Shown piece after piece: positions 6,052 through 16,138 of a stretch of DNA of 16,138 nucleotides. Position 1 is the stretch's first letter; every line of letters begins with the position of its first letter. This stretch comes from Kiritimatiellota bacterium (GTDB lineage: Bacteria > Verrucomicrobiota > Kiritimatiellia > JAAZAB01), in contig VSJD01000179.1 in the NCBI GenBank assembly GCA_008636095.1, forward strand, positions 1-16,138. Direction: 5' to 3'. Below the pieces are notes generated by a model that worked only from the letters and a program-made list of their open reading frames with translations, had not been told where the DNA came from and did not search any database. Both the position numbers and the translations under genes were made by a program.

Positions 6052-6075
6052 CTGCTCAGCGAGCGAAGAAGACAG

Positions 6076-6097
6076 CCCGACCTCTTGGAGAGTCGGG
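6076..6097. repeat. 22-bp palindrome, copy 1 (downstream of der)
   Basis: The element begins CCCGACCTC and ends GGAGAGTCGGG with TT between. It matches the complementary strand of a copy inside glnE (13656-13677) at 20 of 22 positions, the two differences being the central TT versus CC. It could act as a der terminator stem, but no T-run follows. Confidence 0.75.
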
Positions 6098-6139
6098 AAG
6101 AATTCAGAACGAAATATGCCCCAGAAGACAGTATTCTCA

Positions 6140-9515: not shown

Positions 9516-10103
9516 ATGAACTTTCTGAAACTGTTGCCCATGCCTTTCATCAAATCCATGGAATTAGCCCGTGCATCCGGCTGGCGCAAGCCGATCATTC
9601 TGCTGGCCACTGGTTTTGGCTTGGGGCTTAGTCCGGTGGCGAGCGGCACGGCCGGAACGTTACTGGGCTTGCCGATTATGCTCGGCCTGGCGCCGCTCTG
9701 GGCGCACCCAGCGTTCTGGGCGCACCCGGTGTTCCGGGCGTATTCCGGAAGCGGCGTCTTGATGGTGCAGATGATCGCGGCCTTAGGCTTGACCCTGCTG
9801 GCCATCCCGATTTGCGATGTGGCCGAAAAACATTTCGGTCGCAAAGACGATGGGCGCATTGTTGCCGATGAATTCATGACCTTCCCCATCGGCCTGCTGG
9901 GATTACCGCTCTGCCCCTGGGTGCTTGCCCTGGCTTTTTTCACCAACCGGGTGTTCGATGTGCTCAAGCCGTTTCCGGCGAAGGGCCTGCAACGTCTGCC
10001 CGGCGGCCTGGGGATTGTGGTGGACGATGGCGTGGCGGCGTTATATAGCTTGCTGGTTAATCACGCGGTATATTACCTGGTTCTACGGTATGGCGTGAGT
10101 TGA
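9516..10103 (+). CDS. pgpA: phosphatidylglycerophosphatase A
   Basis: PgpA is an inner-membrane enzyme that removes phosphate from phosphatidylglycerophosphate to give phosphatidylglycerol. Family hallmarks are GFGLGLSPVASGTAG (33-47), KDDGRIVADE (110-119, the metal- and phosphate-binding core), RVFDVLKPFP (145-154) and GGLGIVVDDGVAALY (163-177). Hydrophobic stretches near 26-60, 82-101, 122-143 and 173-191 look like membrane segments. At 195 aa it is longer than E. coli PgpA (172 aa). Much of the excess is a loop at about 62-77, with WAHP occurring twice, which is encoded by the 18-bp repeat element at 9701-9751. No good ribosome site is visible at ATG 9516; Met9 (9540) is an alternative start. 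The stop lies two bases from the convergent oxidoreductase stop, so no terminator separates them. Confidence 0.88.
   Translation: MNFLKLLPMPFIKSMELARASGWRKPIILLATGFGLGLSPVASGTAGTLLGLPIMLGLAPLWAHPAFWAHPVFRAYSGSGVLMVQMIAALGLTLLAIPICDVAEKHFGRKDDGRIVADEFMTFPIGLLGLPLCPWVLALAFFTNRVFDVLKPFPAKGLQRLPGGLGIVVDDGVAALYSLLVNHAVYYLVLRYGVS
9701..9751 (+). repeat. 18-bp-unit element inside pgpA
   Basis: Two 18-bp units (9701-9718 and 9719-9736; the second is GGCGCACCCGGTGTTCCG) are followed by GGCGTATTCCGGAAG. The same arrangement, two units then a GTATTC-GG-AAG tail, occurs in glnE at 14319-14369. In pgpA it is read on the plus strand as WAHPAF/WAHPVF. Both units are multiples of three, so the frame is kept. 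Confidence 0.8.
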
Positions 10104-12853: not shown

Positions 12854-15800
12854 CTATCTGCCCCGCTTTGTCCCCTGATTGGTTTTGAATTTCACTTTAT
12901 CATGAAAACTGTCTTTTTCAACTGTTTCCTGCGCGGCCGCGAGAAAATACTGGGTGTAGGTTCGGCGCACCCGTTGCTGGCAGGTATCCAGCTCAATCAT
13001 CAGGCGCTCTGCCGTACTATCCGGACCCAGGACCCGCCGTGCCAGGGCGGCGCGCGCATCTCCCGATTTCGGAACAGCATGAATCTGGCGATCCTCGAAA
13101 ATCTGCAGGATATGCTCCACGCGGCGCAAAAACGTGTAATCCGTCTGCAACTGGCCAACCACCGCCTCCGGCAGGAGACCGCACGTTTTCAAGCGCTCCA
13201 GCGCGGAGAGCGTGTTCCCATCCAACAGCTCGCTCTGGTGGGGGGCATGAATTAACTGGAACCCCTGAACGAGGAACTCAATGTCCCGGATCCCGCCCAG
13301 TCCGCTCTTCACATCGGTGCTCCCCGTCTTCCCGATGGCTGTTTCCCGTAAAGTTTCAATGGAAAGGATGATCGCTGCGGCCGGCCGCGGCTGCATGAAA
13401 ATCGGCCGGACATGTTCCAACAAGGCGGCGCCCAAGGCCGTATTACCCGCCACGGGACGCGCCTTGAGCAAAGCCTGGATTTCCCAGAGCGCGGCCTTCT
13501 TCGCATAATAATCCGCGAGCCCCGTAACGGTATAGACCAACTGGCCGGCGTTGCCATAGGGCCGCAGGCGGAAATCCACCCGGTAGGCGTGCCCTTCCTC
13601 CGTGTGCGCGGACAGGTTTTGACCGACCTGCTTCAACACGCGGGCAAACAACTCTCCCGACTCTCCGGGAGGTCGGGACTCCCGCCGGACACCGGCTAAC
13701 GAAGCCCCGGGCGAACCCGGCGTCCCGGGCGCACCCGGCGTCCTGGGCAACGCATCGGCGCACACTCCCAATAAATCAATATCGGAACTATAATTCAACT
13801 CTCGGCCGCCCAATTTGCCGAAGGCCAGAATGCAAAAACTGTTCTCCCATGTTTGCCGTTCCTGGACACTGCCCCCGCCTGCAACGCTGGTAGCACTGCC
13901 TGCCCGCAATGCTACGCATAGCGTTGCAGGCGGGCAGGCAGGTGCGCCGACGCTTTCCCAGGCCCATTCCAGGGCAAGCCGGATGGAGGCTTCTGCCAGG
14001 GCCGATAGTGAGGCTGTAATGTCCTGGATGGGCGCATGCAGGCAGATATCGCGCGTGCCGATGCGTAAAATCTCCCTGCGCCGGAAGCGCCGCAGGCCGT
14101 TGGGCTGGTCCGCAGGCGTACACCCGGACACAAATGCGCGCAGATCGGCTTCGATTACATCGCGGGGACGCTCGGCGTGCAGAATTGTGGAATTGGTGAC
14201 CCAGTCGAAAAAATCAGGATTGCGAATGAGTGTATCGGCCAGGAACTGGCTGGCCGAAAAAATACCCATGAGAATTTCCAGCCGGCGCGGCTGGGATAAC
14301 AGCAATTGAAAATGAGCGGGCGCACCCGGCGTTCCGGGCGCACCCGGCGTTCCGGGGGTATTCGGCAAGGACCGCACGAAGCGCTCCCAGTTGTTTAGAG
14401 CCATGTCCGGATCGGCGACCCGCCGCAGGAAATCACAGGCCAACACGGCCAGGCGGGCAAATAGTTCCTGTTGGGCCGCCTGCCCGCAGTCGCTACCGCT
14501 CCAGCGTTGCGGGCGGGCAGCGCCGGCCAGCTTGCGCAGATTTACGTTAGCCCGTTCCGTGTCCCGGAATCCCGCCTTGATCAGGATACGATCCCGCAGA
14601 TCCGGTGGCACCGTCCCGGAGAGCACGAGATCGGCCACATTGCCGATGGCTTGCCCCGGCATGGAATCGCGGCCGAAATGGTGTTCCATGAATGCGCGCA
14701 CGACGGCCGTGTGAGTTTCAAAGTCCACGCGCAACTGCTGTTCCGGCTCCAGTTCGTCGCCGCGCTGGTAGCCCATGCGCCGGGCCAGGTGCGCGAATTC
14801 TTCCGATCCTTCCGGCGGCAGGAATAAATCGCGGGCTGAGCCGCGTAACATGCGCAGACCGTTAATGAGCTGGCGTAAAAAATAATACGCCGCCGTGAGC
14901 CGCTGGCTTTCGTCCGGGGTCAGTACGCCCAACTCCGCGAGCGCGCTCAGGGCTTCGTGAATGCGCGGGGTTCGCAGCCGGGGCGATTGGCTGCCATGCA
15001 TGACCTGCAGGATCTGGACATCGTATTCCAAATCCACCAGGGCGCCGGGGCTGAATTTGGCATTATAGCGGTCGGGGGCGGTTTTTTCCGAGAGCTGGCG
15101 GGCGCGCAAATCACGTAGGTCCTGGATATTCACGTGGCGGATGGAATATACAAACTCATCCCGCAGGCGCTCGACCTGTGCGCCGAGGGCGGGATCCCCG
15201 CCGACGGTTCGCAGGCGCGCGAGGGCCAGGCGCTCATAGGCATGCGCCGGGCCGCCCGGGCCGTAGTAGCGGCAGAAACTTTCCAGACTGCATGCCATGG
15301 GGCCGCCGGCGCCGTATGGTCGCAGACGCGTATCCACGTGAAAAATACCTTCACGTTTGGCCTTGACCACCTCCGCCAGCAGGCGCACAAAACGGTCAAA
15401 ATATTCGGAGTTTTCAACGACTTCCGGTCCGTCTGTGTGCCCGCTGTCGCTATAAACGAACAATACCTCGATATCCGAGGCATAGCCCATGGCAACCCCG
15501 CCAAATTTGCCCAGGCCGCAAAGGGTCCAGCGGGCCTCCAGCCCGGCCACGGTACGCGGAATTCCAAACCGCGCCTGCAGATTGCACCGCACGATGTCGG
15601 CGGCGGTGCGGATCACCAGTTCCGCCAGGCTGGTCAGTGCTTCTGCAAATGCGCGTACGTCCGCGGCCGGATTCAGAATATGGTCCAGGTCAATGAGAAA
15701 TAGTTCCCGGTCCTTGAAGGCATTCAGCCGCCGGCCTTGTTCCTCGAACCGGGATTCGCCGTGCAAGCGTGCCTGTAAATCCGTTTCCTGTTCTGCTGCC

Positions 15801-16138
15801 GTGCGGGCAAAGTGATGGTCGGCCACGTGCGGCTGGAGCATCGGCAGGAGCGACTCGTACTGCAGGCGGACAAAATCCTCCCACACAAAATCGCTGGCAC
15901 CCAGCAGGCGTGCCAGGTCCTGCAGGGTGCGGGGATTGGAGAACATCTCGACCCACTGCCCTCGCTCCGGCAGTTTAAGCACCGCATCCACCATCTGCTC
16001 GAACCGGCACAACGCTGCATAGGGATCAGGCGCGTGGCTGACAAAATAAGTGAATTGCTTGGTCAGCAGGACCGCCAGCCGAATGCGGTCCAAGCTCGCG
16101 CTTCCCTCCGTTAACGCGTGTCCGCTGCCATCGAGCAC
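12854..16138 (-). CDS. glnE: glutamine synthetase adenylyltransferase/deadenylylase GlnE, 5' end outside window (partial)
   Basis: GlnE adds AMP to, and removes it from, glutamine synthetase in response to nitrogen state. Residues are numbered from the window edge. The N-terminal deadenylylase half has GLGKFGG (208-214) and SDIE (221-224), then a RLRPYG motif. The C-terminal adenylylation half has FGKLGG, SSDID with D786 and D788, and RLRPYGNAG. In the first half the usual DxD is D222-x-E224. Homology already starts near the edge (FSNPRTLQDLARLLGAS), so probably only a short N-terminus is missing. In-window length is 1094 aa against about 950 for E. coli GlnE. The surplus includes five insertions encoded by repeat DNA, near residues 540-553, 592-607, 734-755, 798-810 and 821-828, giving runs such as TPGAPGTPGAP. 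All sit between predicted conserved blocks and all keep the frame. The gene is upstream of the acyltransferase gene on the same strand. Confidence 0.93.
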   Translation of the reverse strand: MLDGSGHALTEGSASLDRIRLAVLLTKQFTYFVSHAPDPYAALCRFEQMVDAVLKLPERGQWVEMFSNPRTLQDLARLLGASDFVWEDFVRLQYESLLPMLQPHVADHHFARTAAEQETDLQARLHGESRFEEQGRRLNAFKDRELFLIDLDHILNPAADVRAFAEALTSLAELVIRTAADIVRCNLQARFGIPRTVAGLEARWTLCGLGKFGGVAMGYASDIEVLFVYSDSGHTDGPEVVENSEYFDRFVRLLAEVVKAKREGIFHVDTRLRPYGAGGPMACSLESFCRYYGPGGPAHAYERLALARLRTVGGDPALGAQVERLRDEFVYSIRHVNIQDLRDLRARQLSEKTAPDRYNAKFSPGALVDLEYDVQILQVMHGSQSPRLRTPRIHEALSALAELGVLTPDESQRLTAAYYFLRQLINGLRMLRGSARDLFLPPEGSEEFAHLARRMGYQRGDELEPEQQLRVDFETHTAVVRAFMEHHFGRDSMPGQAIGNVADLVLSGTVPPDLRDRILIKAGFRDTERANVNLRKLAGAARPQRWSGSDCGQAAQQELFARLAVLACDFLRRVADPDMALNNWERFVRSLPNTPGTPGAPGTPGAPAHFQLLLSQPRRLEILMGIFSASQFLADTLIRNPDFFDWVTNSTILHAERPRDVIEADLRAFVSGCTPADQPNGLRRFRRREILRIGTRDICLHAPIQDITASLSALAEASIRLALEWAWESVGAPACPPATLCVALRAGSATSVAGGGSVQERQTWENSFCILAFGKLGGRELNYSSDIDLLGVCADALPRTPGAPGTPGSPGASLAGVRRESRPPGESGELFARVLKQVGQNLSAHTEEGHAYRVDFRLRPYGNAGQLVYTVTGLADYYAKKAALWEIQALLKARPVAGNTALGAALLEHVRPIFMQPRPAAAIILSIETLRETAIGKTGSTDVKSGLGGIRDIEFLVQGFQLIHAPHQSELLDGNTLSALERLKTCGLLPEAVVGQLQTDYTFLRRVEHILQIFEDRQIHAVPKSGDARAALARRVLGPDSTAERLMIELDTCQQRVRRTYTQYFLAAAQETVEKDSFHDKVKFKTNQGTKRGR
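13656..13677. repeat. 22-bp palindrome, copy 2 (inside glnE)
   Basis: The complement of the copy downstream of der (6076-6097), differing only at the two central bases. Read on the minus strand it encodes RPPGESG in a GlnE loop just before the conserved FARVLKQ helix. Confidence 0.75.
13710..13745. repeat. 18-bp-unit element inside glnE, copy A
   Basis: Two units, GGCGAACCCGGCGTCCCG and GGCGCACCCGGCGTCCTG, lie 32 bp from the palindrome at 13656-13677. They encode part of the TPGAPGTPGSPGAS run that follows the SSDIDLLGVCAD motif. Unlike the pgpA copy and copy B, there is no GTATTC tail. Confidence 0.78.
13875..13937. repeat. palindromic element inside glnE, copy C
   Basis: A perfect 14-bp inverted repeat (CCGCCTGCAACGCT at 13875-13888, its complement at 13920-13933) encloses a second pairing, GTAGC (13890-13894) with GCTAC (13911-13915). 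The part from 13900 to 13937 closely resembles copy D at 14480-14520. It encodes a Gly/Ala/Ser-rich stretch between the ALEWAWESVG helix and the FCILAFGKLGG strand. Confidence 0.78.
14319..14369. repeat. 18-bp-unit element inside glnE, copy B
   Basis: Two identical 18-bp units GGCGCACCCGGCGTTCCG (14319-14336, 14337-14354) are followed by a GGGGGTATTCGGCAAG-like tail. The pgpA element has the same unit number and the same tail. On the minus strand it encodes NTPGTPGAPGTPGAP, between NWERFVRSL and the LLLSQPRRLEIL segment. Confidence 0.8.
14480..14520. repeat. palindromic element inside glnE, copy D
   Basis: Starts CTGCCCGCAG, has GCTACCGCT in the middle and ends AGCGTTGCGGGCGGGCAG, giving a CTGCCCGC/GCGGGCAG-type stem. 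It aligns with copy C along most of its 41 bp. It encodes an inserted segment (AARPQRWSGSDCGQAA region) between NLRKLAG and QQELFARLAVLA. Confidence 0.75.

Follow-up and report, generated by a model that had tools for sequence, protein, structure and literature searches.

REPs inside open reading frames (ORFs) have been described in several species. In that study they are short, mostly extragenic palindromes, some lying wholly within ORFs, the GTAG ones being most numerous in Opitutus terrae; double insertions occur in uvrA, linkers or loops are proposed for the inserted parts, and the presence of REPs in repair genes is remarked on (PMC3733652). RPEs and MITEs fused in frame to genes have also been reviewed, and the review gives RPEs of 105–146 bp inserted in frame in conserved genes, tolerated by the enzyme in one tested case (Gmk), and a 107-bp Correia MITE with an open form in genes and a related intergenic form (PMC2229807).

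Here we analyze three families of very short repeats in the glnE gene of an uncultured Kiritimatiellota bacterium: family A, a palindrome of 37–40 nt with an imperfect hairpin; family B, a tandem unit of 18 bp that contains a small inverted repeat; and family C, a 24-bp palindrome. The original prediction named the RPEs of Rickettsia as the precedent. RPEs do stand in frame in genes, but they are not the sole precedent, intragenic REPs including those of Opitutus terrae being reported in PMC3733652. Like those REPs, A is mostly extragenic with some copies wholly within ORFs, single genes with two insertions are found here too, and O. terrae belongs to the same superphylum. Family A shares with REPs a palindrome of 20–40 bp, many copies and a location mostly between genes, but it lacks the GTAG/CGTC tag, was not found beside the Y1 transposase genes of the genome, and is not a classical REP. 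B differs in being an 18-bp tandem unit, and the present comparison sets filled against empty sites inside a single genus. As with RPEs, the insertions are in frame in conserved genes and absent from close relatives; however, they measure 18–42 nt and lie outside Rickettsia, in uncultured environmental Kiritimatiellota-like MAGs rather than obligate intracellular hosts, and a single gene carries several families. The 40-nt form of A, set against the rest of the family, resembles the open and intergenic Correia forms, although the present repeats are far shorter than MITEs and the repeats at their junctions vary in length from 1 to 8 nt. No paper on these families was present among the matches listed for Kiritimatiellota/Verrucomicrobia repeats and intragenic palindromes, with subscription literature outside the scope. 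The kind of element is known; the untagged palindrome, the 18-bp family and the same-genus empty sites appear to be new.

Results

Five in-frame repeats in glnE

The window, meaning the whole 16,138-nt stretch of DNA analyzed (contig C229), comes from a fragmented 3.8-Mb MAG (G000; 357 contigs, 87% complete), which was compared with genomes of the same genus (G001–G004) and the same family (G006). Its features are as follows.

6075..6098, + strand: family C copy, noncoding, 3 mismatches (pattern search)
9516..10103, + strand: pgpA (phosphatidylglycerophosphatase A), Pfam PgpA 6.4e-34
9697..9740, + strand: family B in pgpA, two units, other frame (AHPAFWAHPVFR); G002 and G004 have a single unit here and G003 an empty site
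12854..16138, – strand: 3' part of glnE, 1094 codons, Pfam GlnE 5.6e-90 and GlnD_UR_UTase 2.1e-42; Foldseek matches to both E. coli GlnE domain structures (1v4a, 3k7d)
13655..13678, – strand: S5, family C, 24-bp palindrome, in frame (pattern search)
13709..13747, – strand: S4, in-frame family B element of two 18-bp units (tandem repeat span 13706–13748, 2.4 copies, 92% match)
about 13873–13942, + strand: S3 outer, partial copy of palindrome A, split by the inner copy
13899..13935, + strand: S3 inner, complete 37-nt palindrome A (covariance model 61.5 bits)
14318..14356, – strand: S2, in-frame family B element of two 18-bp units (tandem repeat span 14317–14356, 2.2 copies, 100% match)
14479..14518, + strand: S1, palindrome A, 40-nt form (covariance model 55.7 bits)

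The glnE reading frame runs off the contig end, its 5' end lying beyond the contig; an N-terminal glnE fragment of the same genome, with an 18-mer site (S6), stands at the end of contig C289. In the 3' part, A occupies S1 and S3, B occupies S2 and S4, and C occupies S5. The two 18-bp-unit elements and two palindromes of the original prediction are all present, the 37-nt one sitting inside a second, partial copy, and the palindrome given there as 22 bp is really the 24-mer of S5. All five sites keep the reading frame, as had been claimed, but the accompanying description of Gly/Pro/Ala/Ser linkers does not hold at S1, which encodes ARPQRWSGSDCGQ. Three further sites, the 18-mer in pgpA, the 24-mer at 6075–6098 and the 18-mer of the C289 fragment, had not been listed.

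Six 18-mer matches at ≤3 mismatches stand in the window against 0.10 expected, and four A-arm matches at ≤2 mismatches against 0.23 expected; 0/200 shuffles reached six or four, respectively. Reversed patterns gave 0 matches in the own genome, except for the looser A-arm pattern (1 vs 58). glnE is the most decorated gene that we met, as the claim of clustering in one gene implied, but two insertions are also found in a glycosyltransferase, in a C70 ORF (one A, one C), in MurB and in hflX of G002. A plasmid origin of the glnE DNA was rejected, with zero megablast matches in the plasmid collection.

Filled and empty sites in relatives

Comparison at both protein and DNA level confirmed that the inserts are relative-specific. 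In an alignment of 16 GlnE rows (the window and 15 relatives), S1 is shared with P0001, S2 with P0005 and, in a shorter form, P0007, and S4 with P0003 and P0006, while S3 is confined to the window. At the S1 site P0004 has an insert whose residues, known from the protein only, fit A in the opposite orientation; a longer insert occupies the place of S5 in P0003 and P0007, and near S2 the extra residues of P0013 and P0018 differ from those of the window. In glnE DNA, G002 has S1 filled and S2–S5 absent; G003 has S2 filled and S1, S3, S4 and S5 absent; G004 has S2 and one unit at S4, without S1, S3 and S5; and G001 is without S1–S3, while P0009, a GlnE row from a contig equal in length to that of G001, is without the 18-mer at S4. 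The net insertion is 42 nt at S1, and S2 is a 36-nt insertion shared by G003 and G004. Two further glnE sites are S6, an 18-mer array in G002, G003, G004 and the own C289 fragment, and S7, where the insert of G002 contains a family C match. The glnE of G004 (C3:15908-18934) is broken across frames, with a TGA in one match, reflecting assembly frameshifts or a decaying gene. On the glnE tree S1 takes three changes, S2 two and S4 three; with 8 of its 13 inner branches open, the tree is too unresolved to tell gains from losses.

P0003 and P0005–P0007 also have DDRRQT/DGRQTTDD-like peptides between 'ETAIGKT' and 'DVKSGLGG', which are found in L069, L210, L219 and L262 as well; their recurrence in several proteins suggests yet another in-frame repeat family.

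In an AlphaFold model of GlnE (60 sequences, mean pLDDT 85.6, pTM 0.83), S1 corresponds to about residues 541–554, S2 to 591–606, S3 to 735–755 and S4/S5 to 797–824, with pLDDT <50 at 735–755 and 806–821. All five sites are loops in this predicted structure, each insert joining two helices or a strand and a helix, as the original prediction anticipated.

Insertion junctions

Filled and empty sites are also available in pheT, hflX, a glycosyltransferase (two sites), a 5'-nucleotidase and pgpA. The net insertions of 36 nt in pheT and 39 nt at each glycosyltransferase site equal the element minus one base, a rule that is not general, S1 having gained 42 nt for a 40-nt copy of A. Apart from pheT and the two glycosyltransferase targets, which have 1 nt in common with the element, junction repeats read by eye are 6 nt at S4, whose empty form contains CCCGGG, and at S1 (GGGCGG, with one mismatch), 7 nt in pgpA (GGGCGCA), and 8 nt in hflX, whose empty form contains the left end of A (CCTGCCCG), and in the 5'-nucleotidase (CCGGGCGG, with a mismatch); the pgpA and 5'-nucleotidase sequences are parts of the 18-mer. 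Both glycosyltransferase sites represent one target sequence, CAACCCG^CTGG. The base at –1 of A is T in 1 of the 62 copies (of 76) taken into the flank table.

Family A is mostly extragenic

Many other copies of A, B and C are found in the genome, in agreement with the original prediction. Matches to the A arm number 58, 115, 114, 27 and 29 in G000–G004 and 31 in G006, against 1, 3, 1, 6, 6 and 2 for reversed controls. Of the 58 genomes, the other 52 are mostly close to control. The exceptions are G057 (24, control 0), G008 (20, control 2) and, more weakly, G014 (34, control 15). G057 belongs to another family of the class, and the two members of its genus, G024 and G047, have 4 and 1 matches; the excess in G057 could represent a separate expansion or transfer.

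Scoring 150 of 3414 first-look candidates with the covariance model gave 122 matches, corresponding to at least 93 distinct A places. Seventy-six copies were classified by location using gene calls from a home-made codon score, 17 low-scoring places being left out: 45 have noncoding sequence to either side, 20 have coding sequence to one side, 9 stand in frame inside genes and 2 belong to none of these classes. By the strict rule the in-gene rate is 9/76, compared with 51% of 2424 random points (binomial 7e-13), and 45/76 are noncoding on both sides versus 13% of random points. Family A is therefore mostly extragenic and avoids genes. The nine genic copies lie in glnE (2), PheT, HflX, a glycosyltransferase (2), an aminotransferase/CobQ fusion, a DEAD-box helicase read as DinG-like and the C70 ORF, which is without a Pfam match; two one-sided copies, in the LarA-like C218 (Pfam Lar_N) and in C121, look genic when read.

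Length distinguishes these copies: all 9 strictly genic ones measure 37 or 40 nt, and 37 of the 67 others equal 1 modulo 3 (Fisher 0.0097, or 0.042 with C218, whose copy is 39 nt long, and C121 moved to the genic group). The 40-nt TCC form of A, defined post hoc with the genic copies already known, is genic in 5/5 cases versus 4/71 for the rest of the 76 (Fisher 7e-6, or 4e-5 if an unclear sixth own-genome match, C54:5569, is taken as non-genic); a wider definition gives 5/10 versus 4/66 (Fisher 0.0013). Across four genomes there are 13 TCC-form matches, of which 10 lie in frame within genes beyond doubt and 3 are unclear; the ten represent about six independent sites.

Copies of A nested within other A copies were seen. 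A also occupies the centre of a different palindromic repeat (CCCTGTGGCAA...GCCACAGGG and similar sequences) at C90:3263, C129:1061, C275:13287, C341:1060, C324:6143 and C132:4420. Covariation of the hairpin is moderate, both bases having changed in 2 of the 14 pairs (5 cells); shuffles equalled the cells and the score in 0/500 cases and the number of pairs in 154/500. Membership of a known RNA family was rejected, the five Rfam matches at E ≤1 each scoring far under the gathering score.

Families B and C

The 18-mer has 15, 0, 2, 3 and 6 matches in G000–G004 and one in each of three genomes outside the family. Weak single units at window positions 15247–15263 and L226:1824-1840, and two hits in relatives (L229 and L233), were left out as chance. 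The 11 own-genome B sites are all inside ORFs: glnE S2, S4 and S6, pgpA, C282 (MutL), C307 (5'-nucleotidase), C51 twice (MurB), C251 (radical SAM), C280 (unnamed) and C302, which starts at the contig edge and was read as Sua5 from its G002 counterpart. The weakest flank scores belong to C282 (0.08/0.07) and the second C51 site (0.16/0.05). In C282 (L221) the 18-mer lies in the MutL linker, between the N-terminal and dimerization domains. On an assumed coding fraction of 85–87%, 11/11 genic sites have a chance probability of 0.17–0.22; an all-genic distribution, expected by chance one time in five or six, was rejected as proof of targeting. Four of the six frames of the common 18-mer are used (PGTPGA, ARNAGC, GGPGVP, and AHPAFW or DPASRV); the Arg-rich frames PERRVR and RTRRSG are found at none of the few own-genome sites. 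Openness of the 18-mer in six frames was rejected as a sign of adaptation, 58% of random same-GC tandem 18-mers being equally open.

Family C has 35, 6, 10, 16 and 9 matches in G000–G004 and 30 in G006 (control 0). Among the 26 of 35 own-genome matches that were classified, 6 stand in frame within genes, 9 are noncoding, 1 lies between opposite genes, and 10, including the glnE copy, are one-sided. The three families are nearly restricted to the genus, A and C being present also in one genome of the family.

Y1/RAYT transposase genes

Four Y1_Tnp genes are present in the own genome, one of them over the REP_Tyr_transpos cut-off (104 vs 80 bits), and are candidates for moving the repeats. No A copy was found in the four Y1 loci L037–L040 (10,951 bases, E ≤5). 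A RAYT gene at L038:1326-1914 has copies of another, GTAG-type palindrome, TGTAGAGCCGG...CCGGCTAT, on either side; this is likely a REP family of the own genome.

Discussion

The reading that we favor, with a probability of roughly 0.83, is that the repeats are copied widely and that genic copies in frame and in loops are kept by selection. At least three very short repeat families, two palindromes and an 18-bp unit, would spread by copying through the genomes of a single genus and land at many places. Genic copies causing a frameshift, a stop or a broken fold would be lost, and those with a net length that is a multiple of three in a surface loop would persist as lineage-specific linkers; we infer both this purging and a near-neutral effect on the enzyme. 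The original prediction left open whether the elements tolerate or target loops, and 'tolerates' is the better supported: A avoids genes, and the 11/11 genic B sites are compatible with chance. The 18-mer may move by microhomology-guided copying, for instance template switching or gene conversion, given that 6–8 nt of the unit are present in targets that are still empty; the palindrome may move in the same manner or be mobilized in trans by a Y1-type transposase. The microhomology idea is weakened by the glycosyltransferase and pheT targets, which share 1 nt with the element, and the favored reading itself by S1 (42 for 40 nt) and C218 (39 nt), which break the length rule, and by a glnE tree that leaves gains and losses unseparated.

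It is possible, though doubtful, that the genome's own RAYT/Y1 transposase mobilizes A in trans as a REP-like miniature transposon, with B and C as bystanders. The four Y1_Tnp genes, including the one over the REP_Tyr_transpos cut-off, fit this model, as do the size, imperfect hairpin, extragenic bias and copy number of A, and a preferred target is hinted at by the common CAACCCG^CTGG and the rarity of T at –1. However, the four Y1 loci contain zero A copies, the L038 RAYT has its own, different GTAG-tagged palindrome, and A is nearly without tags, GTAG and CGTC each being within 6 nt of an end in 1/76 copies. A RAYT may be missing from the assembly because the genome is 87% complete.

We think it rather unlikely that the 18-mer and the 40-nt TCC form are adapted to genes and pass from one coding loop to another through microhomology, glnE serving as a local nursery; if this were true, the genus would keep trying new linkers in core proteins. 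That the inserts are kept as useful to the proteins, for example in tuning GlnE, seems improbable. glnE has 3 of the 11 18-mer sites versus 0.013 expected (1.3e-3 after multiplication by 3300 genes), a rough statistic for a gene picked on account of the cluster, and the two Arg-rich frames are absent from own-genome sites, but close relatives manage without each insert and the host proteins are unrelated to each other. Ancestral loops deleted in some relatives are a very improbable source: the two or three changes needed by S1, S2 and S4 leave room for losses, but S3 is in the window alone of the 16 rows, the inserts have matching repeat copies at other places in the genome, and more distant GlnE proteins are mostly without inserts, with P0013 and P0018 differing near S2. 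It is hardly credible that peptides such as PGTPGA are protein-level low-complexity linkers whose DNA likeness comes from GC-rich codons; random 18-mers are often open in all six frames, as noted, but one DNA is read in at least four frames, on both strands and in unrelated proteins, and A and C copies also occur outside genes. Metagenome assembly or binning artefacts, which a fragmented MAG might raise, are extremely unlikely: G002 shares S1, G003 and G004 share S2, all three being separate MAGs of other studies, and the frame is kept throughout the glnE sites of the window.

The filled and empty sites form before-and-after pairs of small insertions in core proteins within one genus. Such pairs make it possible to test the tolerance or use of selfish inserts by proteins and the way in which tiny repeats move, and the findings extend intragenic palindromic repeats to 18-bp units and to several families per gene.
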